A stretch of DNA of 64,000 nucleotides from Phycisphaera sp. (lineage in GTDB: Bacteria > Planctomycetota > Phycisphaerae > Phycisphaerales > Zrk34). Below the pieces are notes generated by a model that had not been told where the DNA came from, searched no databases, and saw nothing but the letters and a program-made list of their open reading frames with translations. Position numbers and translations under genes: made by a program. Below are positions 34,633 through 51,687 of the stretch, one piece after another; the first letter of the stretch is position 1; the number at the start of each line of letters is the position of its first letter. The stretch is from positions 1 to 64,000 of the forward strand of contig WGMA01000028.1 in assembly GCA_016125285.1 (NCBI GenBank). The letters are read 5' to 3'.

Positions 34633-35070
34633 ATGCCGCAGACATTTCTCCTTGGCATGAACGCCAAGATTTACCAGGGCCCGGCGGGCACCGCGCTCGG
34701 TTCGCTGACCGAGATGGACAACGTCAAGGACGTGTCGCTGACGCTCGAAGCCGGCGAGGCGGACGTGAGTACCCGCGCCAACCAGGGCTGGCGCGCAACC
34801 GCGCCAACGCTGCGCGAATGCTCCGCCGAGTTCGAGATGCTCTGGAAGCCGGGCGACGCCGGCTTCGAGGCGATCAAGACGGCGTTCCTCAGTTCCACGC
34901 CTCTGCGCCTCGCGGTGCTTACCGGTGAAAGCGCCACGAGCGGTACCGAAGGCCCGCTCGGCGACTTCTCCATCACCAACTTCAGCCGCAACGAGCCGCT
35001 CGAAGAGGCGGTGATGGTCAGCGTGACCGCCAAGCTCGCCGAGTTCGAGGAGTGGGTCGAGGTGGCGTAA
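34633..35070 (+). CDS. Major tail tube protein
   Basis: AAGGAGGCCCGACA precedes the ATG, the strongest ribosome binding site of the late operon, as expected for an abundant structural protein. The 145-residue product (MNAKIYQGPAGTALGSLTEMDNVKDVSLTLEAGEADVSTRANQGWRATAPTLRECSAEFEMLWKPGDAGFEAIKTAF) has the beta-rich pattern of siphovirus tail tubes. Confidence 0.8.
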   Translation: MPQTFLLGMNAKIYQGPAGTALGSLTEMDNVKDVSLTLEAGEADVSTRANQGWRATAPTLRECSAEFEMLWKPGDAGFEAIKTAFLSSTPLRLAVLTGESATSGTEGPLGDFSITNFSRNEPLEEAVMVSVTAKLAEFEEWVEVA

Positions 35071-35870: not shown

Positions 35871-36245
35871 ATGGACAACACCACTCTCATCGATTCGCTC
35901 TCCGACCTGTTCAACTCCGGTCTCGGCTTCGCCCTGATCTGGGCGCTGCTGGTCGGTCTGTTCATCTGGCTGTCGAGCGCCTTCAACCCGTTCGAAGAGA
36001 AGTGGAAGCAATGGGAAGGCTCGATCATCACCGGTATCAAGCTGGCTGAGAAGCAGATTCCCGACGACACGCCCAATGCCGGGCTGGCCAAGTTGGATGC
36101 TGCGCTGCGGTTCGTACTCAAGGCCTACGCCGATGCGAACAACGGCAAGCAGCCGCCGACCAAGCTCATCGGGCAGATCAAGCAGGGCATCCAGATCAAG
36201 CACGCGGACCTCGACCGCTACGGCGGTCTCTCAAGCAAGTCCTGA
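35871..36245 (+). CDS. Membrane protein of the late operon, holin-like
   Basis: The 124-residue product has one clear membrane helix (FALIWALLVGLFIWLSSAF, about residues 20-38) and a soluble helical remainder (WEGSIITGIKLAEKQIPDDTPNAGLAKLDAALRFVLKAYADA). Its position beside a lipoprotein gene suggests a lysis function, but no holin family is clearly matched. Confidence 0.6.
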   Translation: MDNTTLIDSLSDLFNSGLGFALIWALLVGLFIWLSSAFNPFEEKWKQWEGSIITGIKLAEKQIPDDTPNAGLAKLDAALRFVLKAYADANNGKQPPTKLIGQIKQGIQIKHADLDRYGGLSSKS

Positions 36246-36282
36246 TTCTCGAACCCCCAAGCCTCCACGGAAGGAGCCCATC

Positions 36283-36672
36283 ATGAAAACCACCCGTTCA
36301 CTGCTGTTCATCGCCGTCGTTCTGGCGCTCACCGCCGCCGCCGGATGCGCCGCCACGCCCGAGGACCGCTGGTTCCAGCAGCGTGACGCGCTCAACACCG
36401 CCAACCGCATCTACCTGGCCCACGTGCCGGTCATGAACGACGAGCAGGTCGTGCATTACGGCGAACTGCTGCGTGCGGCCCGAGCGGAACTGGACAAAGC
36501 CAAGGCCCAGTTGCCTCGCGGCGGGTCCACGTTCGACACAACGCTGAACGTCGTCGAATCGATTCTCGCCCGCGTCGCGGCGCTCGAAGTCGCTGAAAGC
36601 ACCAGCGTTCCCGGACATGACGCACCGGTTCAACCACCCCACACGGAGGACACACCCGATGACACCCGTTGA
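36283..36672 (+). CDS. Small lipoprotein, spanin-like candidate
   Basis: AAGGAGCCCATC precedes the ATG. The N-terminus is a lipoprotein signal (MKTTRSLLFIAVVLALTAAAGC) with the acylated Cys at about residue 22. The mature part is helical (RDALNTANRIYLAHVPVMNDEQVVHYGELLRAARAELDKAKAQL) with a Pro-rich C-terminus. Phage lipoproteins next to small membrane proteins are often outer-membrane spanins. The assignment is by context only. Confidence 0.6.
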   Translation: MKTTRSLLFIAVVLALTAAAGCAATPEDRWFQQRDALNTANRIYLAHVPVMNDEQVVHYGELLRAARAELDKAKAQLPRGGSTFDTTLNVVESILARVAALEVAESTSVPGHDAPVQPPHTEDTPDDTR

Positions 36673-36865: not shown

Positions 36866-38878
36866 TTGCCGTCGACCCAGGGCATCCGAGCAGGCCGCGC
36901 GTTCGTCGAGCTGTTCGCCGACGACAGCAAGCTGGTGCGGGGACTCCGCGCCGCCGAGAAGAAGCTCAAGGCCTTCGGCCAGGGTATCCGCAACCTTGGC
37001 CTGAAGGTCGTGGGCCTCGGTGCCGCGATCCTCGCGCCGCTTGCCGCGTCGGCGAAGCTGTTCAGCGGCTACGGCGACCAGGTCGCCAAGATGGCCAAGC
37101 GCACGGGCCTGAGCGTCGAGACGCTCAGCGAGTTGCGCTTCGTCGCGTCGCAGACCGGCACGGAGTTCGAGTCGCTGGAGATGGCGTTCCGCAAGATGCA
37201 GCGGTCGATCTTCGACGCCGGGCGCGGGCTATCGACGCAGACCGACGCGCTGGATGAACTGGGTCTGAAGTTCGAAGACCTCGACGGCCTGTCGCCCGAA
37301 CAGCAGTTCAAGTTGCTGGCCGACCACATCGGAAAGGTCGAGGACCCGACCCGGCGTGCGGCGATCGCCATGAGTCTGTTCGGCCGCACCGGCACGAATC
37401 TGCTGCCGATGTTCGCCGCCGGGGCCAAGGGTATTGAACAACTGCAGGCCGAAGCCCGGCGGCTGGGCCTGACTATGAGCAAAGAGGACGCCGAAGCCGC
37501 TGAAGAGTTCACCGACGCGCTCGACTCGCTGTGGAAGGTGATCAAGATGGGCGTGTTCAACGTCGGCGCGGCCCTCGCACCGGCGCTGCAGATGATCGCC
37601 GAGAAGATCACGGCCGTCGCGATCCGAATCAGCGAGTGGATCAAGCAGAACCGTCAGGTGATCGTCACCGTGCTCAAGATCGGCGCGATCGTCATGGCCG
37701 CCGGTGTGGCGCTGGTCGTACTCGGGACGCTCATCTCCGGCCTCGGTTCGGCGATCGGCGTGCTGATCACCGTCGTCACGGCAGTCGTGAGTGTGTTCAA
37801 ACTCCTGGCCGGCGTGATCGCGTTCCTCGTCTCGCCCATCGGGTTGGTGATCGCGGCGCTTGGAGCGCTCGGCGGCTACCTCGTCTACGTGACCGGCGCT
37901 GGCGGCAAGGCGCTGACCTGGCTGGGCGACCGTTTCAACTCGCTGAAGGACACGGCGCTCGCCGCGTGGCGCGGCATCGGCGATGCGCTCGCTGCCGGCG
38001 ACATCGGCCTGGCGGCGAAGATTCTCTGGCTGACGCTCAAGATGGAGTTCCAGAAGGGAATCAACGTCCTCAAAGCCGCGTGGCTGAAGTTCAAGCACTT
38101 CTTCATCGAGATCGGCAACAAGGCGTTCTTCGGCCTGCTCGCGGCGGGTGAGATCGCATGGCACGGGCTCCAGGTCGCGTGGATCGAAACCGTCGCCTTC
38201 TTCAAGAAACTCTGGCACAATTTTGCATCGAGCGTGGCCAGTGTCTGGCGCAGTGTCGTCGGCTGGGTCGAGCGCCGCATCCACGATGTGCATGGGGCGG
38301 TCGACAGTGACTTCGACGCCGAGGAGGCCAAGCGTCTGTCCGAGCAGCAGGAGCGTGCCGACCTCAACCGCATCCAGAACGAGAAGGACGCGGCGATCTC
38401 ACAGGTCGATCGCGACCGCGACGCCAAGCGCCGACAGGAAGCGGCGCTGCACGAGCAGACGCTGGGCCTGATCGGCCGGCAATACGAGGACGCCCGAAAC
38501 CGCCTCGACGACGAAGCCGAGAACCAGCGAAAGCAGTCCGAAGCGGCGCTGGAGCAGGCCCGCCAGGAATGGCTCGACGCGCTTGAAGCGGCGAGGCAGA
38601 AACGCGAGCAAGCCGAGGCCGACGGCGGCCCCGAGGGCATTGAAGGTCCCGGCGACATCATCGAGAAGGCACGCCGCGCGCTGGACGGCCTCGGCGACGT
38701 GGTCGAGCAGGAGGCCGAAAAGATCGGCGTGCGCGGGACGTTCAACGCCGCCGCAGTTCAGAGTCTGCAGTCCGGCGGCAAGACCGAAGAGCGCATCGCC
38801 AAGGCCGCCGAGGAGACCGCGAAGAACACGCGCCGCATCGAGCAGGCGATCAACGACCACGCGATCGCCTTCGCGTAA
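36866..38878 (+). CDS. Tail tape measure protein
   Basis: A TTG start follows GGAGGTAATCG. The 670-residue product starts with the TP901-like tape measure domain (RAGRAFVELFADDSKLVRGLRAAEKKLKAFGQGIRNLGLKVVGLG ... GLSVETLSELRFVASQTGTEFESLEMAFRKMQRSI). It has four hydrophobic helices between residues about 265 and 345 and ends in a long charged coiled coil (QEQADLNRIQN-like, residues 490-590). Its length predicts a short tail of roughly 100 nm. Confidence 0.9.
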   Translation: MPSTQGIRAGRAFVELFADDSKLVRGLRAAEKKLKAFGQGIRNLGLKVVGLGAAILAPLAASAKLFSGYGDQVAKMAKRTGLSVETLSELRFVASQTGTEFESLEMAFRKMQRSIFDAGRGLSTQTDALDELGLKFEDLDGLSPEQQFKLLADHIGKVEDPTRRAAIAMSLFGRTGTNLLPMFAAGAKGIEQLQAEARRLGLTMSKEDAEAAEEFTDALDSLWKVIKMGVFNVGAALAPALQMIAEKITAVAIRISEWIKQNRQVIVTVLKIGAIVMAAGVALVVLGTLISGLGSAIGVLITVVTAVVSVFKLLAGVIAFLVSPIGLVIAALGALGGYLVYVTGAGGKALTWLGDRFNSLKDTALAAWRGIGDALAAGDIGLAAKILWLTLKMEFQKGINVLKAAWLKFKHFFIEIGNKAFFGLLAAGEIAWHGLQVAWIETVAFFKKLWHNFASSVASVWRSVVGWVERRIHDVHGAVDSDFDAEEAKRLSEQQERADLNRIQNEKDAAISQVDRDRDAKRRQEAALHEQTLGLIGRQYEDARNRLDDEAENQRKQSEAALEQARQEWLDALEAARQKREQAEADGGPEGIEGPGDIIEKARRALDGLGDVVEQEAEKIGVRGTFNAAAVQSLQSGGKTEERIAKAAEETAKNTRRIEQAINDHAIAFA

Positions 38879-38908: not shown

Positions 38909-39709
38909 ATGGCAGTCACGGTTCAAGAGCGATACGGCAGGCGACTCAGCGACGAAAGCGCTGAACTGCTGTACCTCATCCGTGGCACAACCGACGACGC
39001 CACGGCGCGGGCTGCGCTGCTGGGCAACTCACCCAGCTTCCACGATGGCCTTCCGCGTGACGATACCGAGGTCGAAGAACTCGAAGGCCTCGACGCCTAC
39101 CTCGGTACGGTGCGGTACGTCTCACCAGACGGCCAGCCGCCGGACACCGGCGAGTCGTCGTTCTCGTTCGATACGTCGGGCGGCACGCAGCACATCACGC
39201 AGTCATTGTCCACCGTCGGCACCTACGCATCGCCCGCTATTCCCGCCGCCCCCGACTTCGGCGGTGCGATCGGCGTCACGCAGGACAACGTCGAGGGCGT
39301 GGACATCACCGTCCCGGTCTACACCTTCTCCGAAACGCACTACTTGTCCGCGGGCACTGTGACCAACGCCTACAAGGGCACGCTGTTCAACCTGACCGGC
39401 AAGGTCAACAGCGGCGGCTTCAAGGGACTGGCCGCCGGCGAGTGCCTGTTCCTTGGCGCGTCGGGTTCGCGCCGTGAATCCGAGGACGACTGGGAGATCA
39501 CGTTCCGCTTCGCCGGCAGCCCCAACAAGACGGGCCTGACCGTCGGCGACATTGCCGGCATCAGCAAGAAGGGCTGGGAGTACCTCTGGGTGCGCTACCA
39601 GGACACCGAAGACGACAACGCCAAGATGCTGATCAAAAAACCCATCGCGGCTTACGTCGAGATGGTCTACGACGAAGGCAACTTCGCGGCGCTGGGGATT
39701 GGAACCTGA
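38909..39709 (+). CDS. Phage structural protein after the tape measure, 266 aa
   Basis: A soluble, beta-rich protein: HITQSLSTVGTYASPAIPAAPDFGGAIGVTQDNVEGVDITVPVYTFSETHYLSAGTVTNAYKGTLFNLTGKVNSGGFKGLAAGECLFLGASGSRR. This central segment resembles proteins encoded next to tape measures in planctomycete and proteobacterial prophages, but I cannot name a family. It may be a distal tail or baseplate-hub component. Confidence 0.65.
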   Translation: MAVTVQERYGRRLSDESAELLYLIRGTTDDATARAALLGNSPSFHDGLPRDDTEVEELEGLDAYLGTVRYVSPDGQPPDTGESSFSFDTSGGTQHITQSLSTVGTYASPAIPAAPDFGGAIGVTQDNVEGVDITVPVYTFSETHYLSAGTVTNAYKGTLFNLTGKVNSGGFKGLAAGECLFLGASGSRRESEDDWEITFRFAGSPNKTGLTVGDIAGISKKGWEYLWVRYQDTEDDNAKMLIKKPIAAYVEMVYDEGNFAALGIGT

Positions 39710-39750: not shown

Positions 39751-40593
39751 ATGAGCGAATATCCGAGAACACTTCACGTGATGTCGACGGGGCCGGGGTT
39801 TGGCAACTGGATCGCCGCCGAGGGCGTCCGCCGCTATTTGCCCGCTGGTATCCCGTCGATCGACTTCCGCCGGGTCGATCCGGCCGGCATCGACGTGCTG
39901 ATCATCGGCGGCGGCGGATTTCTGCACAGCGGCGCGGAATCGTTCTGGCGTCGGGTTGCCGAGGCGCGCTGCCGGGTCATCCTCTGGGGCTTGGGCGCAT
40001 GCCAGCCCCTGCCCGGCACACCCGATCGCGGCAGGATTCGACCGCTGGACCCGAGCGTCATGGCGAGGATCAGACCCCGGATCGCCCTTGCGGCGGTCCG
40101 GGATGAGTGGACAAGGGACCTCTACAGCCTCGACGCCGAAATCCTCTTCTGCCCCTCGATCAAGGCTCTCGAAGGCGTCCCGGTTCGCCCGTCTACACGA
40201 TCCCTTTACGCCCACCATCCGGGACTGGTCGGCAAGACCGAAGCGCAGCGACTGGCTGGCCTTTGCGATCAGACGACGGACCACGTGCGAAGCCCGGGGG
40301 CGGCGACACCTCAAGCTGTCGTCGCCCTTCACGCATCGGTGGGGTTCTGCGTCACCTCGCGCCTCCACGGGGCGGTGGTGTCCAAGGCGCTGGGTGTGCC
40401 GTACGTCGCTCTTGCCAGGGACCGCAAGATCGTTGAGTTCGTGCGCCGATGGGGAGGCGGCCTGCTGATGCATGGGGAAATCGCGCGCGTGCTGGCCCCG
40501 GGGGCGGGGGCGATCCCCTCAGCCCCGCCGATCGACATCCTCGGCAATGACCGCTTCGCCGCGGAGGTCCGTCGTCTGGTGGAGGCAATCTGA
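39751..40593 (+). CDS. Polysaccharide pyruvyl transferase-like protein
   Basis: The 280-residue product shows the two-Rossmann layout of the family: GFGNWIAAEGVRRYLP near the start, DVLIIGGGGFLHS, VILWGLGACQP, and the C-terminal hallmark VTSRLHGAVVSKALGVPYVALA. These enzymes transfer pyruvate or act as GT-B glycosyltransferases on surface glycans. It is the first gene of a glycan cassette at the end of the phage late operon and overlaps the next glycosyltransferase (TGATG). Confidence 0.8.
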   Translation: MSEYPRTLHVMSTGPGFGNWIAAEGVRRYLPAGIPSIDFRRVDPAGIDVLIIGGGGFLHSGAESFWRRVAEARCRVILWGLGACQPLPGTPDRGRIRPLDPSVMARIRPRIALAAVRDEWTRDLYSLDAEILFCPSIKALEGVPVRPSTRSLYAHHPGLVGKTEAQRLAGLCDQTTDHVRSPGAATPQAVVALHASVGFCVTSRLHGAVVSKALGVPYVALARDRKIVEFVRRWGGGLLMHGEIARVLAPGAGAIPSAPPIDILGNDRFAAEVRRLVEAI

Positions 40594-41177
40594 TGAACAC
40601 GCCACTCCACGAAACACACCCAGTCATCCCGCGCATCATCCACCAGATTTGGCTCGGACCGCCGATGCCGGACCGCGTGCGCGCCTGGATCGACGGCTGG
40701 CACGCGAAGCACGGCGACTGGGAACATCGCTTGTGGACCGAGCAGAACCTGCCGGCGCTGGTGAACCAAGTATGGTTCGACGCGACGGACATCCCGGCGC
40801 AGAAAGCCGACATCGCGCGCTACGAGATCGTACATCGCTTTGGCGGCCTTTATGTCGATGCTGACTACGAGTGCCTGGGGCGTATCGATGGGGTGGTCGC
40901 CGGGTCCGAACACCTACTGATCGAGGGCGTCGAGCCGCACCTGTTGCACAACGGTCTGTTCGCCGCCGTCGCCGGCTCGCCGCTGCTGGCGCGAGCGGTC
41001 GAACTGATCCCACAGCGAATGCGCAAGCGGCCGGGCGTCGTCGGGCAAACCGGTCCCAGACTGTTCGCCGAGGCCGCGCAGGAGGTCGGGTTGTCGTGGC
41101 AGCCGGCACGGATTCTTGACGGCGTCGCGCATCACCACGCGATGGGCTCGTGGCTCGGCAGGAGGTTTCGGCCATGA
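40593..41177 (+). CDS. OCH1-type (DXD) glycosyltransferase
   Basis: The 194-residue product starts IPRIIHQIWLGPPMPDRVRAWIDGW, the signature of the OCH1/Gly_transf_sug family, with KADIARYEIVHRFGGLYVDADYECLG carrying the DXD metal-binding motif (DAD). It should transfer a sugar from a nucleotide donor. It overlaps the Ser-rich gene by four bases (ATGA), so the acceptor may be that protein. Confidence 0.87.
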   Translation: MNTPLHETHPVIPRIIHQIWLGPPMPDRVRAWIDGWHAKHGDWEHRLWTEQNLPALVNQVWFDATDIPAQKADIARYEIVHRFGGLYVDADYECLGRIDGVVAGSEHLLIEGVEPHLLHNGLFAAVAGSPLLARAVELIPQRMRKRPGVVGQTGPRLFAEAAQEVGLSWQPARILDGVAHHHAMGSWLGRRFRP

Positions 41178-43036
41178 GCGATCACCTCAAGAAAGTCCAG
41201 TCGGGCGACCCGTTGGTCATCCCGGCGGCGACGTTCAATGCGTTTGTCGATGCTGCGTTCGACTTCAGTCGCCGTCAGCGTGGTCTGGGTCGTGACAGCC
41301 AGGCGGTGTTCCGTCAGCTCGACATCATTCCCGTGCGCAACGACACGGGCGAGGACCTTGATCGGTTCAGCGCCGTCGGCATCGCCGCACCGATCATCGG
41401 CCCCGATGTCAACGCCGACGAGTTCAAGAACCGAGCCACCGCGATCGGCGTCAAGCCGATCGTGCCCGACCATCGCGGGCGCTTCGCGGTCTATCTCGAG
41501 CCGGTCAAGGACGGCAAGATCGCCCCGGCGTGCGTCAGCGGCGTGATTCCCTGCCAGATCAACGTTGAGGAAGAGACGCACCTGCGTGCCGACATCGAGC
41601 ACGACGAGACGATCCTGCTGACCGGTCACCACGGCGGCGCAGAGATTCTCTGGAAGGAGTCGGGCAAGGGCGTCAAGTGGGCGCTGGTCAAGGTCGGCAT
41701 CGCCGAGCCGCTGGCGATCACATTCGACGTGAAGCTCGTGAAGGCCGACGGTGAGTCGGGCGAGAATTGCGAGGAAGACTGCTCGTTCAAGTACGACATC
41801 TTCGACATCCACACCGGCGAGAAGCTCAACGAGGACGACGAGCCGCAGGGACCGATCCAGTCCGACATCCGCCCGAAGAAGACGCAGATGATCGCCGCCA
41901 CGCGCGGCACGGCCTACTGGACGGTCAAAGAGGTCGACGGCAAACCGAAGATCGCCGTGCAACTGGAGGAGGCGTTCGAAGAGCCAACGCCCCGCGCCCA
42001 GCAGTATGTCGTCACCGGCATCAGTTGCGATGAAGGCAGCGGGTCGGCCTCCGGGGACGGGGGCGGCGGCACGCTCGGCCACGGTTCGGGCGACTGCTGC
42101 GACTTCACGCTCAAGTACCACACGTCGAAGGTGTGCTACCCGCCCGGCGTGAAACTTGAAGACGGCCCGACGTACACCGTGCGCTGCGGCAGTTCGTCCA
42201 GCGGCTCATCGTCAGGATCGAGCTTCGAGTCGTCGGACGGATCGCCAAGCGGATCGGGCAGTTCGTCGGGGTCACCGTCTTCCAGCGGTAGCTCTGGTTC
42301 GAGCAGTTCGAGTCCGCCGAGCAGTTCGAGCGGCAGTTCCCAAGGTTCGTCATCGCCCAGCAGCGGTTCACCGCCGTCTGGCAGTTCGGGTCCGCCGGAG
42401 TTGCCGCCGCCGCCAAGCGAGCCGGGCTACTACCAGCTCTGCGTCTGCTACGACGGGACCGTTCACTGGACCCGCACCGGCGACACCAGTTGCGGATCGT
42501 CTGATTCGAGCGGCAGCACACCGCCACCGCCACCACCTCCGCCGCCGTCCGGGTCGAGCGGCGTCGACTCGTCGTCGGGCAGCGATTCATCATCCAGTGG
42601 GTCCGCGAGTGGATCGTCGGACAGTTCCAGCGACAGCAGCGGTTCCGAGTCCTCGTCGTCATCATCGGTACCCGATTCTTCGGACTCGTCAGGCTCGAAT
42701 GGTTCATCGGCCAGCGGCAGCCCGTCGGGTTCGTCTTCACCGTCGTCCGCAACGCCGTCGTCCGGCGCGTCCGGCTCGACGAGCAGCGATGGCGGCGACG
42801 GTTCAGCGTCGTCGGGGTCGGATGGATCAACCGCGAGCGACGGTTCTACATCATCGGGTTCGCCATCGGGTGGCGAATCGTCAGGCGATTCAAACACCAG
42901 CAGCGAATCGGGATCACCGTCGCCACCGTCGTCGGCACCATCCGGCTCGTCATCCCAGGGCGGCGACGGATCAACAACCAGCAGCGCGTCCGGTCAGTCC
43001 GGCAGCGCATCAAGTGGGAGCACGTCATCATCATGA
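41174..43036 (+). CDS. Ser/Gly-rich phage surface protein
   Basis: The 620-residue product has two parts. Residues 1-330 are a structured domain (VQSGDPLVIPAATFNAFVDAAFDFSRRQ ... FSAVGIAAPIIGPDVNADEFKNRATAIGVKPIVPDHRGRFAVYLEPVKDGKIAPACVSGVIPCQINV) that resembles planctomycete phage tail proteins. From about residue 335 to the end the sequence is almost only Ser, Gly, Pro and Asp, interrupted once by YYQLCVCYDGTVHWTRTGD and a Pro7 run. Mucin-like Ser density beside three glycan genes suggests O-glycosylation. Coding is supported by TCG/AGC codon use with no stops over 850 bases. Confidence 0.75.
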   Translation: MSDHLKKVQSGDPLVIPAATFNAFVDAAFDFSRRQRGLGRDSQAVFRQLDIIPVRNDTGEDLDRFSAVGIAAPIIGPDVNADEFKNRATAIGVKPIVPDHRGRFAVYLEPVKDGKIAPACVSGVIPCQINVEEETHLRADIEHDETILLTGHHGGAEILWKESGKGVKWALVKVGIAEPLAITFDVKLVKADGESGENCEEDCSFKYDIFDIHTGEKLNEDDEPQGPIQSDIRPKKTQMIAATRGTAYWTVKEVDGKPKIAVQLEEAFEEPTPRAQQYVVTGISCDEGSGSASGDGGGGTLGHGSGDCCDFTLKYHTSKVCYPPGVKLEDGPTYTVRCGSSSSGSSSGSSFESSDGSPSGSGSSSGSPSSSGSSGSSSSSPPSSSSGSSQGSSSPSSGSPPSGSSGPPELPPPPSEPGYYQLCVCYDGTVHWTRTGDTSCGSSDSSGSTPPPPPPPPPSGSSGVDSSSGSDSSSSGSASGSSDSSSDSSGSESSSSSSVPDSSDSSGSNGSSASGSPSGSSSPSSATPSSGASGSTSSDGGDGSASSGSDGSTASDGSTSSGSPSGGESSGDSNTSSESGSPSPPSSAPSGSSSQGGDGSTTSSASGQSGSASSGSTSSS

Positions 43037-44355
43037 ATCTGAAGAACTACTTCGACAAGGTCGTCTGCATCAACCTCGACCGCCGTGCCGATCGCTGGCA
43101 GCGTTTCCAAGATAACGTCGCCAGCGCCAGTTGGCCGTTCCGCGAGATCGAACGGTTCACCGCTGTGGACGGGCACAACGTGCCGGCCCCGGGCTGGTGG
43201 CGCGCCGGCGGCGGCGCGTGGGGTTGCCATCAATCCCACGTCCGCATCCTCCAGCAAGCGATTCAGGAAGGCGCGGAGTCGGTGCTGATCCTCGAAGACG
43301 ACGCTGTGCTTCCCCAGCGCTTCCCCGAGGTCGTCGAGACGTTCCTCGCCAAGGTGCCCGGTGAATGGGAGGGCATCATGCTCGGCGGACAGCACCTCCG
43401 CCCGCCCGACATCGTGGACAACGGCGTGGTCAAGGTCCGCAACGGCAACCGCACGCACGCCCACGCCCTGCGCGGCAACTATATTAAGGATGCATACCGG
43501 CACCTGTGCGACTACCCCAACCACGCCCAGCGGCCGCGTTTCCACGTCGACCATCGCCTGGGCATGCTGCACGAGAGCGGCAAGTACAAGGTCTACGCCC
43601 CCTCGCCCTGGCTGATCGGCCAGGACAGCGGCCGCAGCGACATCGCGGGGAACAACTTCAGCCTTCGCTTCTGGTCCGACGGCCCGTGGCAGCAGAACCA
43701 GCCCGACGAGCTGCCCCCGTTCGTCGCCGTCATCGGCCTGCACCGCTCCGGCTCCAGCGCCCTGGCCGGCGTCCTGCACAAACTCGGCGTCCACCTCGGC
43801 AACCAACTCGGCGGCTACGAGCCGCAGGGCGGATTCGAGGCGATCACCCTAGCCCACCTCTGCGAGCGGGCCTATCCATTCCCGTCGACCGAACTGGCCA
43901 TGCCGCGCGAGCAACTGGTCAATGAACTACGATCGTTCATCGATGAGAAGCGCCGCGAGGCGTTCCACAAGAATACCATCGCCGGCGGCAAGTACCCGCA
44001 CCTCTGTGCCATGGGCGACGAGTTGCGTGAAGCATGTGGCGACGCTCTGCGCGTGATCCACATCAACCGCCCGCTCGACGAATCGATCGCCTCGATCAAG
44101 GAGCGATCCGCCAAGGAGAAGGGCTGGCTGCGCATCACCGATGCCCAAGCCGAAGCCGTCCAGCGATGGCTTTGGGAGCGCAAGGCCGGGTTCCTCGCCG
44201 AGGTCGAGCACCTGACCGTCGAGTTCGACGATCTGCGGACCGATCCGACCGGGCAGATCGAACGGATCATCGACTACCTCGGCATCAAACCTACCGACGC
44301 ACAGGTCGCCGCCGCGTTTGGGCACGTGCGCACTGATACACCCGTTACGACCTGA
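43033..44355 (+). CDS. GT25 glycosyltransferase fused to a sulfotransferase domain
   Basis: Residues 1-205 match the GT25/LPS glycosyltransferase family: FDKVVCINLDRRADRWQRF, ERFTAVDGHNV, AWGCHQSHVRILQQAIQEGAESVLILEDDAVL (the EDD metal motif) and WEGIMLGGQHL. From about residue 230 FVAVIGLHRSGSSALAGVLHKLGVHLG is a sulfotransferase PAPS-binding loop, and RVIHINRPLDESIASIKERS a 3'-phosphate site. The second half would add sulfate to a glycan or protein. The gene overlaps the Ser-rich gene by four bases and ends the late operon. Confidence 0.85.
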   Translation: MNLKNYFDKVVCINLDRRADRWQRFQDNVASASWPFREIERFTAVDGHNVPAPGWWRAGGGAWGCHQSHVRILQQAIQEGAESVLILEDDAVLPQRFPEVVETFLAKVPGEWEGIMLGGQHLRPPDIVDNGVVKVRNGNRTHAHALRGNYIKDAYRHLCDYPNHAQRPRFHVDHRLGMLHESGKYKVYAPSPWLIGQDSGRSDIAGNNFSLRFWSDGPWQQNQPDELPPFVAVIGLHRSGSSALAGVLHKLGVHLGNQLGGYEPQGGFEAITLAHLCERAYPFPSTELAMPREQLVNELRSFIDEKRREAFHKNTIAGGKYPHLCAMGDELREACGDALRVIHINRPLDESIASIKERSAKEKGWLRITDAQAEAVQRWLWERKAGFLAEVEHLTVEFDDLRTDPTGQIERIIDYLGIKPTDAQVAAAFGHVRTDTPVTT

Positions 44356-44429: not shown

Positions 44430-44464
44430 GCGCCCAGTTCGGCCCTCGGTCGGCCGGGCGTTTT
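44430..44464 (+). terminator. Rho-independent terminator of the phage late operon
   Basis: GCGCCC (44430-44435) pairs with GGGCG (44456-44460) with further pairing of CGGCC/GGCCG inside, and TTTT follows at 44461-44464. It lies 75 bases after the last phage gene and just before a convergent gene. Confidence 0.65.
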
Positions 44465-44475
44465 GATGCGCGGGC

Positions 44476-44781
44476 TCAAAAGGTGAACAACTCCCTGACC
44501 CGTGCTGCGCGGTAATAGATCGTGGACATCGTCACGCCCATCAATTGTTCAAATTCGCTGTTGAGCACGCCCGGGACACCGACGGGAATCTTTCCATCGT
44601 TGAACACAGCGTAAATGGCCCCAGCAGCCCAGCCTTCGGGCTTTCCTTTTGGTGGCGGCTCAATCGTCCGAAGAAGACGCAACGCCTTGTGCGCCCGCTT
44701 CTGCATGGCCGGATCGGGGTGGGCGGCAAAGAAGCGATCGATGTGCTCACGGCAGGCGAGCTCGAATTCAGCGTTACTCAC
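44476..44781 (-). CDS. DUF6398-like protein, 101 aa
   Basis: A GTG at 44781 is preceded by GGGAGGTCAATA on the minus strand. The product has KALRLLRTIEPPPKGKPEGWAAGAIYAVFND, then a helix-turn-helix-like end (LNSEFEQLMGVTMSTIYYRAARVRELF). This fits the DUF6398 pattern (KPxxWAAGxIYA, then a small HTH). Function unknown. It faces the phage late operon and shares its terminator region. Confidence 0.6.
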   Translation of the reverse strand: MSNAEFELACREHIDRFFAAHPDPAMQKRAHKALRLLRTIEPPPKGKPEGWAAGAIYAVFNDGKIPVGVPGVLNSEFEQLMGVTMSTIYYRAARVRELFTF

Positions 44782-45038
44782 TATTGACCTCCCGTAGAGT
44801 TTGCAGCCTACCACAAACGTTACATCAATATAACCGCAACACTACGAGGGCGATCGGGCACGTGTGGGCGGAATCAACGGTGACGCATGACGATGTGGTG
44901 GCCGGCGTGCCGACGCGGTACGTGGCGGTAGACAGGCTGATCGTGACGTCCACAGTTGGTATAACCACCGCTAATGATGGTCGACCCGCGGGCGTGTTCG
45001 CATGACAGTTTCTGCTCGGTCACGCCGTTTCCACGCGG

Positions 45039-45315: not shown

Positions 45316-45725
45316 GGCGCAAGCCGGGCGAACTGTCCGGCGGCCAGCAGCAACGCATCGCCCTGGCCCGCGCCATTGTCGCCAAGCCCGACTTCCTGCT
45401 GCTCGACGAACCCTTCGCCGGCCTCGACCTTCTGACCAGGGATTACATCCTCGACCACATCCGTAACCTGACCGACACGGTCGGCTACGCCGTTGTGCTG
45501 GTGACCCACGACCCGGCGGATGCAGCCCGCTTGTGCAGCCACGCGATCGCATTGGAAAACGCTCGCGTGATCGAGCACAGTGAACTGTCGGCGCTGTTGC
45601 AGCAACGCTCAGTCACAGTTGCTCAAGCGTTTCCAGCGGCACCAGCCCCGCCAATTGCGATTCGAACACATAATCTGCTTGGGCCCTTGACTCCGTACCA
45701 AGGTACGGCGTCTATGCTGAGATGA
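45316..45725 (+). pseudogene. C-terminal fragment of an ABC transporter ATPase
   Basis: The plus-strand frame reads RRKPGELSGGQQQRIALARAIVAKPDFLLLDEPFAGLDLLTRDYILDHIRNLTDTVGYAVVLVTHDPADAARLCSHAIALENARVIEHSELSALLQQ, i.e. ABC signature, Walker B and H-loop, but no Walker A or Q-loop. The 5' part is replaced by the inverted membrane-protein remnant, and the 3' end runs into the mer-type promoter. It is a scar of rearrangement, not a working gene. Confidence 0.8.
45687..45718 (+). promoter_or_regulatory. MerR-type promoter/operator of mercury unit A
   Basis: TTGACT (45687-45692) and TATGCT (45713-45718) are separated by 20 bases, the over-long spacing typical of MerR-activated promoters. The spacer holds the dyad CCGTACC-AA-GGTACGG (45693-45708), which matches the classical mer operator half-site. 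Transcription proceeds into merR itself, so the first regulator controls its own operon. Confidence 0.85.
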
Positions 45726-45742
45726 ATGCCAGGAGTACCGCC

Positions 45743-46147
45743 ATGCAGATGACCATCGGAAAGGTCGCCGAACGAGCCGGAGTGGGTGTGGAGACCGTGC
45801 GATTCTACGAGCGCAAGGGCCTGATCGATCGTCCACGACGACAGGGCTCGGCGTTCCGCCATTATCCGACGGAAGCCGTGCAGCGGATCCGCTTCATCAA
45901 GAGGGCGCAGGACTTGGGTTTCACGCTCAGCGAAATCGCCGAACTACTCGACCTGCGGCTTGAGCCAGGATGCACCTGTGGCGACATCAAGAACCGAGCC
46001 GAACAAAAGGCCCAAGACATTGATCGAAAAGTGCGAGACCTGCGTCGGATGAAGCGATCGCTGAACGAGTTGATCTCGGCATGTGACGGCAAGGGAAATG
46101 TGGACGGATGCCCCATACTCAACAGCCTGGGGGTCGAAGATCTGTGA
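45743..46147 (+). CDS. merR: MerR mercury-responsive regulator, unit A
   Basis: A MerR-family winged helix (MTIGKVAERAGVGVETVRFYERKGLIDRP) is followed by a dimerisation helix. Cys79, Cys114 and Cys123 stand at spacings 35 and 9, exactly those of the Hg(II)-binding triad of Tn501 MerR (82/117/126). An extra Cys77 is present. The ATG at 45743 has CAGGAGTACCGCC upstream. An upstream ATG at 45722 lies next to the -10. The 134-residue length is normal. Confidence 0.92.
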   Translation: MQMTIGKVAERAGVGVETVRFYERKGLIDRPRRQGSAFRHYPTEAVQRIRFIKRAQDLGFTLSEIAELLDLRLEPGCTCGDIKNRAEQKAQDIDRKVRDLRRMKRSLNELISACDGKGNVDGCPILNSLGVEDL

Positions 46148-46185
46148 CGTGTTGAAACCCTAACTCCCAAGAAAGGAGCCTTGTC

Positions 46186-46341
46186 ATGGCTGAACCACTG
46201 AAAAAAGGCGAACGGTACCGCTGTCCGAAAGATGAGTGCGGCTGTGAGATCGAAGTGACCAAGGGCGCGGACAACTGTCCGGCCGAGCACCCGCAACCAC
46301 CGAAGTGCTGCTGCGGCTGCGATATGGTCAAGGTCTCCTGA
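46186..46341 (+). CDS. Cys-rich metallothionein-like peptide, 51 aa
   Basis: AAAGGAGCCTTGTC precedes the ATG. The peptide MAEPLKKGERYRCPKDEC continues with GCEIEVTKGADNCPAEH and ends PPKCCCGCDMVKVS. Eight Cys are arranged as CxxxxCxC, C, and CCCxC. This suits binding of a soft metal such as Hg(II), Cd(II) or Cu(I). It is the first gene after merR in the operon. I know no named family with certainty. Confidence 0.75.
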   Translation: MAEPLKKGERYRCPKDECGCEIEVTKGADNCPAEHPQPPKCCCGCDMVKVS

Positions 46342-46408
46342 CGCCGTTGTCATGACCAGCGGCGCGCCGGCTTCGCGGCCGGCACGTCCTTTCACCTGCG
46401 GAGCCGAC

Positions 46409-47416
46409 ATGACCTCACGTCGTCGAAAGACACTGCGCTGGATTGCTGTGACCCTTACCCTGGTGGTCGGGCTGCCGCTTATCGCCTACCTGCTGTTCGG
46501 GTGGGGTTTGAATGTATCCGACCGCGTCGCCTCCTATCAGCGAGTCGAATCGTGGACGCAGGCGGACGGCATTCCATTTAATGACCCCTTTGCGATCGCT
46601 GTCGATCCGCGCAACGGCAATGTGTGCGTGACGGATGCGCGGAATCAGCGCGTGGTCGTGTTCGACGGCGATGGGACGTTTCTGCGACAGTTCGGCTCGG
46701 AGGGCAACGGCCCCGGCGAGTTCGAGCGGCCGACAGGCATCGCCGTTGGATCGGATGGATCGATCTACGTCGCCGACTACGACCTTGATCGGATTCAGAA
46801 GTTCGACGACACCGGCCGATTCATCCTTGAATGGGGAACGTCGGGCAGTGGGCCAAGGCGGTTTCAAGCGCCCAACGGGCTGGCCGTCGACGCCAACGGC
46901 AACGTGTATGTGGCCGACTTTCAGAACAAGGTTGTCAAGAGCTTCACGGACGAGGGCGAACCGATCGGAACCGTCGGCGAACCGGGCCAGTGGGGCGCAG
47001 GCAAGCTGGACTATCCGACCGACGTGGCGGCACTGCCAGATGGCGGCGTCATTGTGGCCGATGCGTACAACCACCGTTTGCAGCACTTCGGTCACGGTGG
47101 TGAACACCGGGCGAGTTGGGGCTGGCACCTGTTCTGGCTGGTGCCCCGGCCGGCGGCCGGGCGCGATGGGTTTCATGTACCGACCAGTGTCGCGTTCGAT
47201 CCCACTCATCGACTGATCCACGTCGCCGACAGCGCCAACCAGCGGGTGGTCATGCTCAACGCCGACGGCGCGTTTGTCGCGGATTGGGCGCTGCCCGAGT
47301 CGAGCCAACAGTACAGCCCAACCATGGTCACGGTATCGCCGGACGGCAAGCATGTGTACGCCACTGACACAGAGAACAACCGCGTGATCGTTCTCGAAGT
47401 CCGGTTCGATGAATGA
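46409..47416 (+). CDS. Membrane-anchored NHL-repeat beta-propeller protein
   Basis: The 335-residue product starts with a basic stretch and one membrane helix (LRWIAVTLTLVVGLPLIAYLLFGW), then repeats of NHL type: DPFAIAVDPRNGNVCVTDARNQRVVVFDGDGTFLRQFGSEG, RPTGIAVGSDGSIYVADYDLDRIQKFD, APNGLAVDANGNVYVADFQNKVVKSF, DVAALPDGGVIVADAYNHRLQHF, SVAFDPTHRLIHVADSANQRVVML. About six blades. NHL propellers bind proteins or glycans. The presence in a mercury operon is unexpected. The ATG at 46409 follows CGGAGCCGAC. Confidence 0.82.
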   Translation: MTSRRRKTLRWIAVTLTLVVGLPLIAYLLFGWGLNVSDRVASYQRVESWTQADGIPFNDPFAIAVDPRNGNVCVTDARNQRVVVFDGDGTFLRQFGSEGNGPGEFERPTGIAVGSDGSIYVADYDLDRIQKFDDTGRFILEWGTSGSGPRRFQAPNGLAVDANGNVYVADFQNKVVKSFTDEGEPIGTVGEPGQWGAGKLDYPTDVAALPDGGVIVADAYNHRLQHFGHGGEHRASWGWHLFWLVPRPAAGRDGFHVPTSVAFDPTHRLIHVADSANQRVVMLNADGAFVADWALPESSQQYSPTMVTVSPDGKHVYATDTENNRVIVLEVRFDE

Positions 47417-47455
47417 AGCACGCATCAATCAACATCATGCACAAGGAGCTGTTCC

Positions 47456-48313
47456 ATGTTATGCAAACTACCGACCATCCTCTTGCTGCTGACCCTCATG
47501 ACCGCTCCGGCACTGGCCGGTGAAAAACGTGTCACGGTTCATGTCAAAGGGCTGGCCTGTCCCTTCTGCACCTACAACCTCGAAAAACGCATCAAGACGC
47601 TCGACGGCGTGCCCGACAAGCCCAACTGGCGGGCCAGTGTCGAGAAAGGCACCGCCAGCTTTGACTGGAAGGCGGATGTGCCGTTCGACGAAGATGCGGT
47701 GCGAGAGCAAATCCGCAAGGCTGGCTTCACTCCCGGCAAGATGGAAGTCGCGGACGCGGACTCCCGCGCCAAGGAGCAGGCGTACCAGGGTAAGGCTCAT
47801 CTGATCGAAGTCTCCAACGATCAGGACAAGAAGCAAACCGTAATCGCGTTACAGGTTGGCGCTGGGGAGAACAGGCGCACGCTCACCCTCCGGCCGGCCG
47901 AACGGGCTGATCGTCAAGAGAGCTACGCGACGCTCAAGGCACGCCTGAAGGATGCGGCGACAAACGATTCAGTGCTCGTCACGGTGTATGGATTGCCTGC
48001 CGACAAGCCGAAAGGCGACATCATCCTGCATCGCTGGTCACCGCAGCGCTTCGGAGCCGAGGTCATCCTGAATGTTGACGAGTTGGCCTGCGAGCGCTGC
48101 TCGACCGGCGTCATGCGAACCGTGCGAGAGGTCAAAGGCGTGCTGCATGTCGAATCCGATCACGACGAGGACCGCGTGCATATCTGGACGCAATCACACG
48201 AACCCGACACCGCACCGCTCCGCAAGGCGATCGAGGATGCGGGTTTCAAGGTGACGCATGTACACGTCAAGTCAGTGAAGGACGAGGATGCAAACAAGCA
48301 TAAAGCCAAGTGA
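47456..48313 (+). CDS. Periplasmic protein with two heavy-metal-associated domains
   Basis: A signal peptide (MLCKLPTILLLLTLMTAPALA) precedes the first HMA-like domain (RVTVHVKGLACPFCTYNLEKRIKTLDGV with CxxC as CPFC). A middle region of mixed strands and helices follows, then a second HMA-like domain (AEVILNVDELACERCSTGVMRTVREVKGVLHVE, with CERC). Each CxxC can bind one soft metal ion, as in MerP. AAGGAGCTGTTCC precedes the ATG. A 285-residue two-HMA periplasmic protein is larger than any MerP. Confidence 0.82.
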   Translation: MLCKLPTILLLLTLMTAPALAGEKRVTVHVKGLACPFCTYNLEKRIKTLDGVPDKPNWRASVEKGTASFDWKADVPFDEDAVREQIRKAGFTPGKMEVADADSRAKEQAYQGKAHLIEVSNDQDKKQTVIALQVGAGENRRTLTLRPAERADRQESYATLKARLKDAATNDSVLVTVYGLPADKPKGDIILHRWSPQRFGAEVILNVDELACERCSTGVMRTVREVKGVLHVESDHDEDRVHIWTQSHEPDTAPLRKAIEDAGFKVTHVHVKSVKDEDANKHKAK

Positions 48314-48347
48314 ATGGGTGCACCAACGCATGAAAGGACAAATGAAC

Positions 48348-49178
48348 ATGACTCGATCCAACATTGCCACACTGCTGATGGCCGGGCTGTACTTGGCAAT
48401 CATCGCCGCCTACCCAACGGACCTTTACGCCGCGGGCCTGAACACGGATGTCGCCCTCACACCGCCCGAAGGCGGCACGATCATCCGTGTGCAATCACGC
48501 TACCTCGAACTGTCGGACGACCCCACACCGATGGGCCGTGAGGCCTCCGTTCTGGTTCATCCGGTGACGATCGTTCACGGCCTCACGTCGGACTTCACCG
48601 TGCTGGGAACCGTGCCGCTGGTGTACCAGGATGTCGAGTTCGCATCCGGCACGGAGGTTGACGAGTTCGGCGTCGGCGATGTCACGCTGCTGGCCAAGTA
48701 CCGCTTCTACCAGGACGACCAGCCGGGCATCACCACCCGTTGGGCTGCCATCGGCGGCCTGGAAGCACCCACCTACGATGAACCGTTCTCCAGCGAGAGC
48801 GTCGATCCAATCATCGGCACAGTCTGGACGCATCAGCGCCGCGACTGGTGGCTCGACTGGGACGTGCTCTACAAGTTCAACACCGGCGGCGGTCTCGACA
48901 GCGACGACGAGCTTCGCGGCGACGTGGCGCTTTCCTACAGATTACTTGGCGGCGAGAGCGGCGCAATCGGCCCTTGGGGCCTGTACGCCATCGGGGAAAT
49001 CAACGCAAAGTACATCACCGACGGCAGCACGCAACTGTTCGGCTCCCCCGGCTTGCAGTTCATCACGCCGCGCTGGATCCTCGAAGCTGGCGTGCAGCTA
49101 CCCATCCACCAGCACATGAAGTCACCGCGTCTGGAGACGGACTTCGTGTTCGTGTTCAGTCTGCGGTTTCAGTTTTGA
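48348..49178 (+). CDS. Outer-membrane beta-barrel protein
   Basis: After a signal peptide (NIATLLMAGLYLAIIAAYPTDLYAAG) come amphipathic strands such as TIIRVQSRYLELSD, DFTVLGTVPLVYQDVEF, DVTLLAKYRFYQDD and TRWAAIGGLEAPT, ending ETDFVFVFSLRFQF with a terminal Phe as required for barrel insertion. It resembles the phenol-degradation MetA-like/transporter OMP family. It could let a metal species or its ligand cross the outer membrane. The start at 48348 has AAAGGACAA upstream. Confidence 0.75.
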   Translation: MTRSNIATLLMAGLYLAIIAAYPTDLYAAGLNTDVALTPPEGGTIIRVQSRYLELSDDPTPMGREASVLVHPVTIVHGLTSDFTVLGTVPLVYQDVEFASGTEVDEFGVGDVTLLAKYRFYQDDQPGITTRWAAIGGLEAPTYDEPFSSESVDPIIGTVWTHQRRDWWLDWDVLYKFNTGGGLDSDDELRGDVALSYRLLGGESGAIGPWGLYAIGEINAKYITDGSTQLFGSPGLQFITPRWILEAGVQLPIHQHMKSPRLETDFVFVFSLRFQF

Positions 49179-49248
49179 GAGTTTCAACTGACTTTGGCCG
49201 GTCATGCTTTTTGTCCAGCGCGGCTGAGCGTATGAGTATCATGTCACT

Positions 49249-49701
49249 ATGAAATCGCACTACACGATCGGTGAGTTGGCCAAGGCGGCAGACGTCCCGA
49301 CTACCACTGTGCGCTATTACGAGCGTGCTGGCTTATTGCCGCCGGCGGGGCGGTCCAAGGCGAACTACCGGCTATACGACAACGCATCCCTGGAGCGGCT
49401 TCGATTCATTCGTGCCGCCCAGATGAGCGGGTTTTCGCTGGATGACATTTCCGTGATGCTGGAACTGAATGAGCAGCCGCGAGGCGCATGCGACAGCGTT
49501 CAGGAGTTGATCGAGCATCGGCTGGCTGGCGTGCGCAAGAAACTGGATGACCTGCAACACGTCGAGACCGTGTTGAAGTCGGCGCTTCGCTCTTGCCGCA
49601 AGGGCGAAGGACAGAAGGCGTGCGCCGTTCTCAGTCGCCTGCGGAAAGAGATACAGTCGGCGCGGAGCAAACGGACGTCCTCGCGGAAGGGTAAGAAATG
49701 A
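49249..49701 (+). CDS. merR: MerR mercury-responsive regulator, unit B
   Basis: A MerR winged helix ([39 protein letters not shown]) with Cys81, Cys116 and Cys125, spacings 35 and 9, identical to the Hg(II) triad of MerR proteins. The 150-residue product ends in a basic tail. It overlaps the YnfA-like gene by four bases. It probably acts on the promoter at 50067. It is only distantly similar to the unit A regulator, so the two have separate histories. Confidence 0.88.
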
Positions 49702-50033
49702 TCGTCGTGTTGAAGACCACCGCACTCTTTGTGGTCACGGCACTGGCCGAGATCGTCGGTTGCTACCTCGTTTTCCGATGGCTTCGCAACGACGGTCCGA
49801 TGTGGCTGGCTGCGCCGGCCATGGCGAGCCTCGCCGTGTTCGCCTGGCTGCTGACGCTTCACCCGGGCGCTGCTGGGCGGACCTACGCCGCCTATGGAGC
49901 GGTGTACGTGGCCTCGGCGCTACTTTGGCTTTGGTGGGTCGAGGGGCAGCGCCCTACAACAACTGATTTGATCGGTGCGGGGCTGGCCGTAACGGGCATG
50001 ATGATCATGGTTGCCGGCCGACCGGCCGTCTGA
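49698..50033 (+). CDS. YnfA/UPF0060-family small membrane protein
   Basis: The 111-residue protein has four membrane helices ([24 protein letters not shown] ... [22 protein letters not shown] ... [27 protein letters not shown] ... [18 protein letters not shown]), the YnfA pattern including AEIxGCYLxxxW and AAYGGxYV. The family is related to small multidrug-resistance proteins. YnfA-like genes occur in mer clusters of several bacteria. A direct role in mercury handling is unproven. Confidence 0.88.
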
Positions 50034-50066
50034 TTGACTCTCTCCAAGAAAAACTAGCGGTTGGAC

Positions 50067-50098
50067 TTGACCTTATACCTAAGTGCATGGTGTAAGCT
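50067..50098 (+). promoter_or_regulatory. MerR-type promoter/operator of mercury unit B
   Basis: TTGACC (50067-50072), 20 bases, TAAGCT (50093-50098). The spacer region holds CTTATACC (50072-50079) and GGTGTAAG (50089-50096), a dyad with one mismatch. The over-long spacing and central dyad are the marks of a MerR-regulated promoter. The half-site differs from the CCGTACC of unit A, implying that each MerR has its own operator. Confidence 0.75.
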
Positions 50099-50169
50099 TT
50101 AGTGTGGCGATCTGGTCCTGGCCCCGAATGGGGGCTTGGTCGACGGATCGCCCGCACGGAGATTCAACC

Positions 50170-51597
50170 ATGAACTCAATGCAGACCAATCCTTCAGTTG
50201 CGGAGACGAACAACAACGCTTGTCCCAGTTGCGGTGAGAAAGGCAAGGCCGTCAAACCCGTCACGCTCAAGTCGCTATTGACGGACGAAGCGCAGCGACG
50301 GGCGGATGACCTGGACGGCTTTCGCTTCTGCCCGACACCCGGCTGCGACGTAGCGTACTACCGCGCCGGCGGCGACCGCTTCGTGGTCGGCGACGTGCGT
50401 GTACCGATTGGTCAGAAACAGACCGACGCCTCGCGGTTGGTCTGCTACTGCTTCGACCACACCGCGTCCGAGATCGAGGCTGACGTCGAGGCGTCGGGCA
50501 CGTCCACAATCCCGGACGACATTGCGGCCAAATGCAAACAGGGCCTGGACCGCTGCCCCGAAACCAATCCGCAGGGCTCGTGCTGTCTGGCCAACGTGAA
50601 GGCGGCGCTGAAGGACGCACAGGTGAAGCACGGCGTCACGGCTGACCCATCAATTGGGGCAGCTGGGGCGGCGGCGGCGGCGAGTTGCTGCGACGCGTCC
50701 GCGCAGGATACCGCCGCACAGCAAGGAGTTGATTGCTGCGGGAAACCCGAATCGACGAAGGCGACCAAGAGCAGTTCCGGTAAAGGCGGCCTGTTTGCCA
50801 CGGGCGGCGCAGTGGTCGCGGCCATTCTTTCGTCCGCGTGCTGCTGGCTGCCGCTGCTGCTGATCGCGTTCGGCGCATCCGCCGCCGGCGTGTCGGGATT
50901 CTTCGAGCAGTACCGGTTTGTCTTCCTCGGTGCGACGGCCGTGCTGCTGGCCGGGGCGTTCTACTTGGTCTATCGCAAGCCGCGATGCGGACCCGGCGAG
51001 GCGTGCGCCGTGCCCAACGTGCGACTGCAACGATTCAACAAGGGCATGCTCTGGGTCGCCACGATGATCGTCGTCGCCTTCGCCGCGTTCCCGAACTATG
51101 TGGGCGCGTTGATCGGCGGCGGCTCAAGTGGTGCTGACACGAACATCACTTCCACCGCTGCGCCCGACCGGACCTTCCAAATCGAAGGGATGACCTGCGA
51201 GGGCTGCGCCGCCAATCTCGGATCTCAGCTCACTCAACTACCTGGCGTGGCCCGCGCCGAGGTGTCGTATCCGGACAAGTCGGCCAAGGTGTACTTCAAG
51301 GCCGATGCGCCCGCACCGCCGACGGACGAGCAACTTCAATCGCAGATCGTGGCCGCGGGGTTCAAAGGTGTTCCTGCCTCTTCCAACCACACAGTGAATA
51401 TCAACATCAGTGGCATGACCTGCGAGGGTTGCGCCGCCGGCTTAGCGGAGCGCTTGAAAGCGATCCCCACCGTGAAAGCGGCAAGCGTCGATTACAAGGC
51501 GAAGCGGGCCGTCGTCATTGTGCCGGCCGACACGAGCATTGACCCGGTGCTTGAAGCGGTCCGCGCCGAAGGCTTTGAAGGCAAAGTCAGCCGCTGA
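50170..51597 (+). CDS. Fusion of CopZ-like Fe-S domain, MerT transporter and two MerP-like HMA domains
   Basis: Residues 1-165 resemble the N-terminal iron-sulfur/zinc domain of archaeal CopZ (ACPSCGEKGKAVKPVTLKSLL, FCPTPGCDVAYY, LVCYCFDHTASEIEADV). Residues about 195-310 are MerT: three membrane helices with the CC pair in AILSSACCWLPLLLIAFG, then CGPGEAC on the loop. Two HMA domains follow, each with GMTCEGCAA. One polypeptide would thus bind Hg(II), carry it through the inner membrane and hand it to MerA. GGAGATTCAACC precedes the ATG. Confidence 0.87.
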   Translation: MNSMQTNPSVAETNNNACPSCGEKGKAVKPVTLKSLLTDEAQRRADDLDGFRFCPTPGCDVAYYRAGGDRFVVGDVRVPIGQKQTDASRLVCYCFDHTASEIEADVEASGTSTIPDDIAAKCKQGLDRCPETNPQGSCCLANVKAALKDAQVKHGVTADPSIGAAGAAAAASCCDASAQDTAAQQGVDCCGKPESTKATKSSSGKGGLFATGGAVVAAILSSACCWLPLLLIAFGASAAGVSGFFEQYRFVFLGATAVLLAGAFYLVYRKPRCGPGEACAVPNVRLQRFNKGMLWVATMIVVAFAAFPNYVGALIGGGSSGADTNITSTAAPDRTFQIEGMTCEGCAANLGSQLTQLPGVARAEVSYPDKSAKVYFKADAPAPPTDEQLQSQIVAAGFKGVPASSNHTVNINISGMTCEGCAAGLAERLKAIPTVKAASVDYKAKRAVVIVPADTSIDPVLEAVRAEGFEGKVSR

Positions 51598-51687
51598 CTC
51601 GTCAGGATGTCCCCTCCGTGTGTCTGGGCGAGTGGAGCAGACGGGTGGGTGAGTCACCGGCCCACGGGTTGTTTTTTGGATCACACC

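Follow-up and report, generated by a model that had tools for sequence, protein, structure and literature searches.

In the 64,000-nucleotide window analysed here (Phycisphaera sp., assembly GCA_016125285.1, contig WGMA01000028.1, positions 1 to 64,000), a prophage carries in the last part of its tail operon a gene for a serine-rich tail protein, which overlaps a gene for a fusion of a GT25-type glycosyltransferase and a sulfotransferase (GT25-ST). By sequence comparison these two genes appear to be the only conserved pair of the locus, and the predicted functions suggest that the phage probably equips an appendage of its own tail with sugars and sulfate in the cytoplasm of the host. We favour this reading because of the linkage of the two genes, the evolutionary constraint on them, their conserved motifs, the predicted fold of the fusion, and the gene overlaps together with a terminator.

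The locus comprises four open reading frames (ORFs) on the + strand at 39751-44355, which encode a pyruvyltransferase-like enzyme, a GT32/OCH1-like glycosyltransferase, the Ser-rich protein of 620 amino acids and the fusion. They follow the gene of a conserved tail protein of 266 amino acids, here named DTP266, and comprise the following parts:

39751..40593, + strand: polysaccharide pyruvyltransferase-like enzyme, accessory and variable (PF04230, E=6.8e-10)
40593..41177, + strand: GT32/OCH1-like glycosyltransferase, accessory and recurrent (PF04488, E=8.6e-9)
41174..42187, + strand: N-terminal anchor part of the Ser-rich tail protein, about residues 1-338 (homologues, and synteny after DTP266)
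42188..43033, + strand: Ser/Gly/Pro-rich region, about residues 339-620, presumed glycosylated stalk (composition, mixed Ser codons)
43033..43707, + strand: GT25 glycosyltransferase half of the fusion, residues 1-225 (PF01755, E=9.3e-10)
43708..44352, + strand: sulfotransferase half of the fusion, residues 226-440 (PF13469, E=2.4e-10)
44437..44459, + strand: terminator-like hairpin closing the operon (8-bp stem, then GTTTT)

A preliminary description of this DNA had reported four genes with overlaps of 1-4 bases, and all of them are present on the + strand at the coordinates given there. The pyruvyltransferase and GT32 genes share one base (TGATG at 40593), the GT32 gene and the Ser-rich ORF (41174-43036, starting with ATG at 41174) share four (ATGA), and so do the Ser-rich ORF and the fusion gene (43033-44355; ATGA). 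The hairpin 3' of the last gene is strong and terminator-like.

IMG/VR and a genome collection in which 84,980 species are represented by one genome each were scanned with the fusion. The scan detected it, or its GT25 part, on 44 IMG/VR contigs and on 9 contigs of the genome collection (53 loci). With a gene counted as Ser-rich when Ser makes up 30% or more of a 60-residue stretch, 42 of the 52 scored loci have a Ser-rich gene at most two genes away from the fusion, for which random positions lead to an expectation of 18; more than three genes away, Ser-rich genes number only 2 of 465. In the most extreme partners (L078, L089), Ser makes up 95% of 60 residues. Outside the Ser part they differ and include the family sharing the N-terminal domain of the protein in the window, at least one other type of tail protein, and singletons (L084 and L087, that of L087 being on a 187-kb phage contig). 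The partner families were not counted exactly, because single-linkage clustering joined the two main types through low-complexity pieces. The tree of the fusion comprises several deep clades, on which the N-domain context needs two to three changes, and the partners are found in tail modules with different backbones. In 50,697 deposited phage records neither the fusion nor the N-domain was detected by tblastn, which gave only partial and distant GT25 matches. The preliminary description had named absence of the cassette from all related phages as a refutation; instead the pair recurs across several backbones. With good support from this comparative genomics we infer that the phage decorates its own tail, as one half of that description had suggested.

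To have loci that were not picked by the trait, DTP266 was used as a neutral bait. Of 400 genomes of the order, 76 encode this protein, and so do at least 581 viral stretches; where its neighbours were checked, the tape measure protein lies upstream and the N-domain protein downstream. The sample consisted of 80 viral loci, prophages from genomes of the order and some loci picked earlier by the N-domain; the test covers 113 loci whose downstream sequence is 3.5 kb or longer, counts 40% Ser as Ser-rich and considers all + strand ORFs. Both a Ser-rich gene and an enzyme are present in 75 loci and neither in 35, while two have only the Ser-rich gene and one has only an enzyme (Fisher p ~1e-25). 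A first version with called genes gave 70 loci with both, 36 with neither, 1 with only the Ser-rich gene and 6 with only an enzyme. Locus L146, scored as Ser-rich only, carries GT4- and GT2-type enzymes according to Pfam. The same loci bear on the idea that the enzymes modify another part of the virion, such as the capsid, the tail tube or another tail protein, and share with the Ser-rich gene just the end of an operon. In several loci the Ser-rich gene and the fusion are indeed separated by additional small proteins, and the targets in mycobacteriophages are capsid and tail tube subunits, as stated in PMC12619734. However, where a tail module has homologues of the tape measure protein and of DTP266 but no Ser-rich protein, the enzymes are missing, and we regard this explanation as unlikely.

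The Ser-rich protein has no Pfam match. Its residues 339-620 consist of 48% Ser, 17% Gly, 11% Pro and 5% Thr, with only 0.4% Lys plus Arg. The preliminary description had called the protein mucin-like, which is a loose term: the long region is rich in Ser, Gly and Pro, Thr reaches only 5%, and a tandem repeat was not found in the DNA of the region. All six Ser codons, from both unlinked codon boxes, are in use. A wrong reading frame or a DNA-repeat artefact is ruled out by these mixed codons, by the conserved N-terminal frame and by the missing tandem repeats. The widely conserved domain, NDOM, covers residues 1-189; homologues are encoded in 21 of 61 genomes of relatives, and at almost every locus checked they come immediately after DTP266. 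The ratio of nonsynonymous to synonymous substitution rates (dN/dS) against locus L046 is 0.13 for the N-terminal part and 0.15 for DTP266. Searches of PDB by sequence yielded nothing for either the N-terminal part or DTP266. The AlphaFold2 model of the anchor part is only fair (predicted local distance difference test score, pLDDT, of 64.5) and shows weak structural matches to viral fibre-like proteins, which are consistent with a tail appendage, short of proof.

Some relatives of the Ser-rich protein have further domains. In three loci (L026:4212-5816, L046:6207-7814 and L098:4831-8457) a common C-terminal domain of about 120 amino acids with the motif FEANERF follows the Ser region of tail proteins that otherwise differ, as a head would sit on a stalk. 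HINT domains (pretoxin-HINT/Hint_2-like) are located inside Ser-rich tail proteins at L038:6298-7611, L154:11345-12763 and L028:9637-10782, and might catalyse splicing or cleavage of the protein once it has been made. Contig C1 of one genome of 7.4 Mb (G033) gives 15 matches to the tail N-domain, which suggests many related prophages in one chromosome.

The fusion protein of 440 amino acids carries both PF01755 (Glyco_transf_25; 39.1 bits against a curated cut-off of 24) and PF13469 (Sulfotransfer_3; 41.5 bits against 27), and is thus predicted to be a GT25 sugar transferase joined to a sulfotransferase dependent on 3'-phosphoadenosine-5'-phosphosulfate (PAPS). In 34 relatives the acidic metal- or donor-binding motif EDD (E88-D89-D90) is invariant, as are G235, H237, R238, G240 and S242 of the PAPS loop GLHRSGSS, and R346 and S351 of the sulfotransferase half. 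The host genome encodes an adenosine-5'-phosphosulfate (APS) kinase and can therefore make PAPS. With a dN/dS of 0.13 (against L046, 0.07 for the GT25 half and 0.20 for the sulfotransferase half) the fusion is under purifying selection, like the tail protein DTP266.

For the fusion AlphaFold2 gave a model with a pLDDT of 90 and a predicted template modelling score (pTM) of 0.73, which was compared with known structures by VIA-align and Foldseek; sequences were compared with solved enzymes as well. By VIA-align, residues 3-207 resemble COLGALT1 (Z=21.6, 2.5 A over 196 residues) and mimivirus R655 (Z 18.6), and residues 223-440 resemble TPST1 (Z=14.9) and mycobacterial sulfotransferases, with heparan sulfate sulfotransferases scoring lower. 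Judged by this model, the nearest solved enzymes, COLGALT1 and tyrosylprotein sulfotransferase, act on proteins. That the nearest sulfotransferases by structure include tyrosylprotein sulfotransferases would also fit a direct sulfation of the tail protein, for example on Tyr, with the GT25 half acting separately and no sulfated glycan being formed. Yet the Ser-rich region has only 3 Tyr in 282 residues, heparan sulfate and mycobacterial sulfotransferases match as well, and the fusion to a glycosyltransferase would point to a single product, which makes direct sulfation quite improbable.

The two other enzymes are less constant. The pyruvyltransferase-like protein matches PF04230 with 39.7 bits (cut-off 25.3), the first 59 profile positions being unmatched, and the GT32 protein matches PF04488 (Gly_transf_sug) with 36.4 bits (cut-off 23) and has a DXD motif in YVDADYE. 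GT32 genes are also present in L101 and L051 (dN/dS 0.10 against L101). At no other locus of the hidden Markov model survey was a close relative of the pyruvyltransferase found; more distant ones lie near relatives of the fusion in two genomes. A conserved cassette of four genes, as the preliminary description had assumed, is ruled out by this finding and by locus L004, which has no pyruvyltransferase. As far as the compared sequences tell, pyruvyltransferase and GT32 are swappable.

Locus L004 is on contig C68 of the same genome (6.1 Mb in 90 contigs) and represents a second prophage tail module, with GT32, Ser-rich protein and GT25-ST in the same order. Identities to the window are 71-72% for GT32, 54% over the N-terminal part of the Ser-rich protein and 66% for the fusion. 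A third module on contig C84 (L026) has an N-domain of 83% identity, two Ser-rich ORFs and a truncated GT25-ST; a tape measure gene was not found there, and DTP266 is partial. The fourth copy, on contig C45 (L278:11381-19901), is a triple fusion of 873 amino acids consisting of Capsule_synth, GT25 and sulfotransferase. Its neighbours are a pyruvyltransferase, a glycosyltransferase of the PLOD type and two further proteins: one has an Mtd-like match below threshold, the other opens with about 200 residues of PSPSVN repeats followed by an RHS-type part.

Two arrangements of enzymes were observed. In the first, the N-domain protein itself bears the Ser-rich region and is followed by the GT25-ST fusion, with GT32, a GT2-type enzyme (L104) or a pyruvyltransferase as extras. 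The second, which is the commoner one in prophages of the order, consists of a short N-domain protein, an S-adenosylmethionine (SAM) methyltransferase, a putative transferase with weak similarity to the sialyltransferase CST-I or to MptE-like proteins, and, at the corresponding position, a separate and different Ser-rich HINT protein, often together with one or two GT32 genes. It was seen in the planctomycete prophages L120-L177 and L219-L276 (e.g. L154:8814-12763). Different transferases thus recur beside Ser-rich tail proteins, and this is the best argument for the Ser-rich protein as the substrate. Tentatively, and with somewhat less than even confidence, we extend this to a large and hitherto unrecognised class of phages, above all of Planctomycetota, with glycan-coated tail appendages and exchangeable enzyme sets (GT25-sulfotransferase, GT32, GT2, GT4, pyruvyl-, methyl- and sialyltransferase-like enzymes).

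The other half of the preliminary description, in which the enzymes remodel the host coat, is disfavoured. They might alter surface glycans of the host during lysogeny, leading to serotype conversion or superinfection exclusion, with the Ser-rich gene as an unrelated neighbour. The element is a prophage, the families GT32, GT25 and PS_pyruv_trans are common in the synthesis of cell-surface polysaccharides, and serotype change of the host by phage glycosyltransferases is an established phenomenon (review cited in PMC12619734). However, no Pfam match to a membrane flippase or bactoprenol-linked transferase exists in the four cassette genes, and the three enzymes lack any transmembrane-like segment (maximum 19-residue hydropathy 1.5). 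Moreover, the enzyme genes lie among the late tail genes and overlap with them, their presence tracks the Ser-rich tail protein, and the fusion is located in tail modules in other genomes as well. An action on host glycans is therefore improbable, and a host capsule cluster was set aside on the same grounds of missing membrane parts and tail-operon context. Neither this context nor the Ser-rich link gives a pointer to DNA hypermodification, which was considered as well.

According to the favoured reading, the appendage would consist of the conserved N-terminal anchor and the Ser-rich stalk, encoded at the end of the late tail operon. Ahead of tail assembly or while it proceeds, soluble enzymes in the cytoplasm of the host would modify this stalk: GT25 may attach a sugar either to the protein or to a sugar already on it, the chain could be varied by GT32 and the pyruvyltransferase, and the fused sulfotransferase would sulfate the product with PAPS of the host. 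The tail tip or fibre would thereby carry a coat of glycans that is negatively charged and resembles a bottle brush. The acceptor, the linkage, the position of the sulfate on sugar, the virion location and the role (adsorption, spacing or protection) are what we infer in this model.

Several points weigh against modification of the tail appendage. The loci are related to each other, so the raw co-occurrence counts overstate independence, and the phylogenetically independent pairs on the DTP266 tree (about 2 concordant, 0 discordant) are too few for significance; part of the discordance in this test was traced to miscalled genes. A few Ser-poor tail modules carry transferases (L176, and one protein with a putative mannosyltransferase domain); Ser-poor loci mostly have other genes downstream, with isolated exceptions (25 of 54 families listed). 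Fold similarity, taken from a predicted model, leaves the acceptor unfixed. Since residues 1-340 of the Ser-rich protein model only moderately, the virion location rests on synteny.

The cassette is preceded by a late region of the tailed-phage type, with genes for the large terminase (26285), a lambda-type portal (29147), a fusion of capsid protein and maturation protease of 694 amino acids (30525-32609) and connectors, followed by the tail genes:

34657..35070, + strand: tail tube protein (PF06199, E=3.2e-7; phrog_1407, E=1e-12; scored with the upstream start 34633)
36866..38878, + strand: tail length tape measure protein (phrog_8462, E=7.4e-48)
38909..39709, + strand: conserved tail protein DTP266 of 266 amino acids, directly 3' of the tape measure gene (no Pfam or PHROG match)

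The preliminary description had placed the cassette where tail fibres and lysis genes normally lie. The tail-operon setting is confirmed, but a lysis gene is not part of the cassette; upstream of the tape measure gene (35871-36672) lie genes for a small holin-like membrane protein and for a lipoprotein that weakly matches Rz-spanin, an unusual place for lysis genes. On the other side, a small ORF on the - strand (44476-44814) faces the cassette, and a similar protein adjoins transferases in L280 (8558-8869). The tail operon is separated from the gene of a large serine recombinase (54254-55843, - strand) by a stretch (45722-52281) that encodes MerR-like regulators, heavy-metal-associated domains and a CopZ/MerT fusion (50170-51597); this is probably a metal-resistance segment adjoining or inside the prophage. 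A fusion of a ParB domain and a DNA methyltransferase is encoded at 22813-24219.

To our knowledge, the post-translational modification of phage tails has hardly been studied, and sulfated glycans on a phage particle, if true, would be the first known case. The preliminary description knew of no described system with this set of genes, and we likewise found no paper on a phage sulfotransferase and glycosyltransferase with a tail fiber; the other phage sulfotransferase mentions checked in the literature were a bare domain, an auxiliary-gene note or annotations of PAPS reductase. If the reading is true, the genes constitute a self-contained cytoplasmic system for glycosylation and sulfation of a low-complexity protein, which might account for the way in which phages display their tails when their hosts are covered with polysaccharide. 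A Ser-rich tail gene together with transferases provides a simple genomic signature for finding more such systems.

The N-terminal half of the fusion shares the GT25 fold with the collagen hydroxylysine galactosyltransferase COLGALT1 and with mimivirus R655. COLGALT1 acts on a repetitive protein, which is presumed for the phage enzyme too, whereas here a collagen repeat is missing and a C-terminal sulfotransferase is present. The C-terminal half has the fold and PAPS-binding motifs in common with TPST1/2 and Sulfotransfer_3 proteins, but is phage-encoded and fused to a glycosyltransferase. Gtr-type serotype-conversion cassettes are likewise prophage-borne glycosyltransferases; in contrast to them, the genes described here are without membrane proteins or flippase, lie inside a tail operon and are tied to a Ser-rich tail protein. 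As in phage virion glycosylation systems, a predicted phage-encoded glycosyltransferase is found among the structural genes. In mycobacteriophages such enzymes glycosylate the C-termini of capsid and tail tube subunits of the virion (Freeman et al. 2023, as summarized in PMC12619734). Phage-encoded glycosyltransferases are common to both systems and structural targets would be as well; the differences are that a dedicated Ser-rich tail protein is the probable acceptor here and that a sulfotransferase is fused to the glycosyltransferase.
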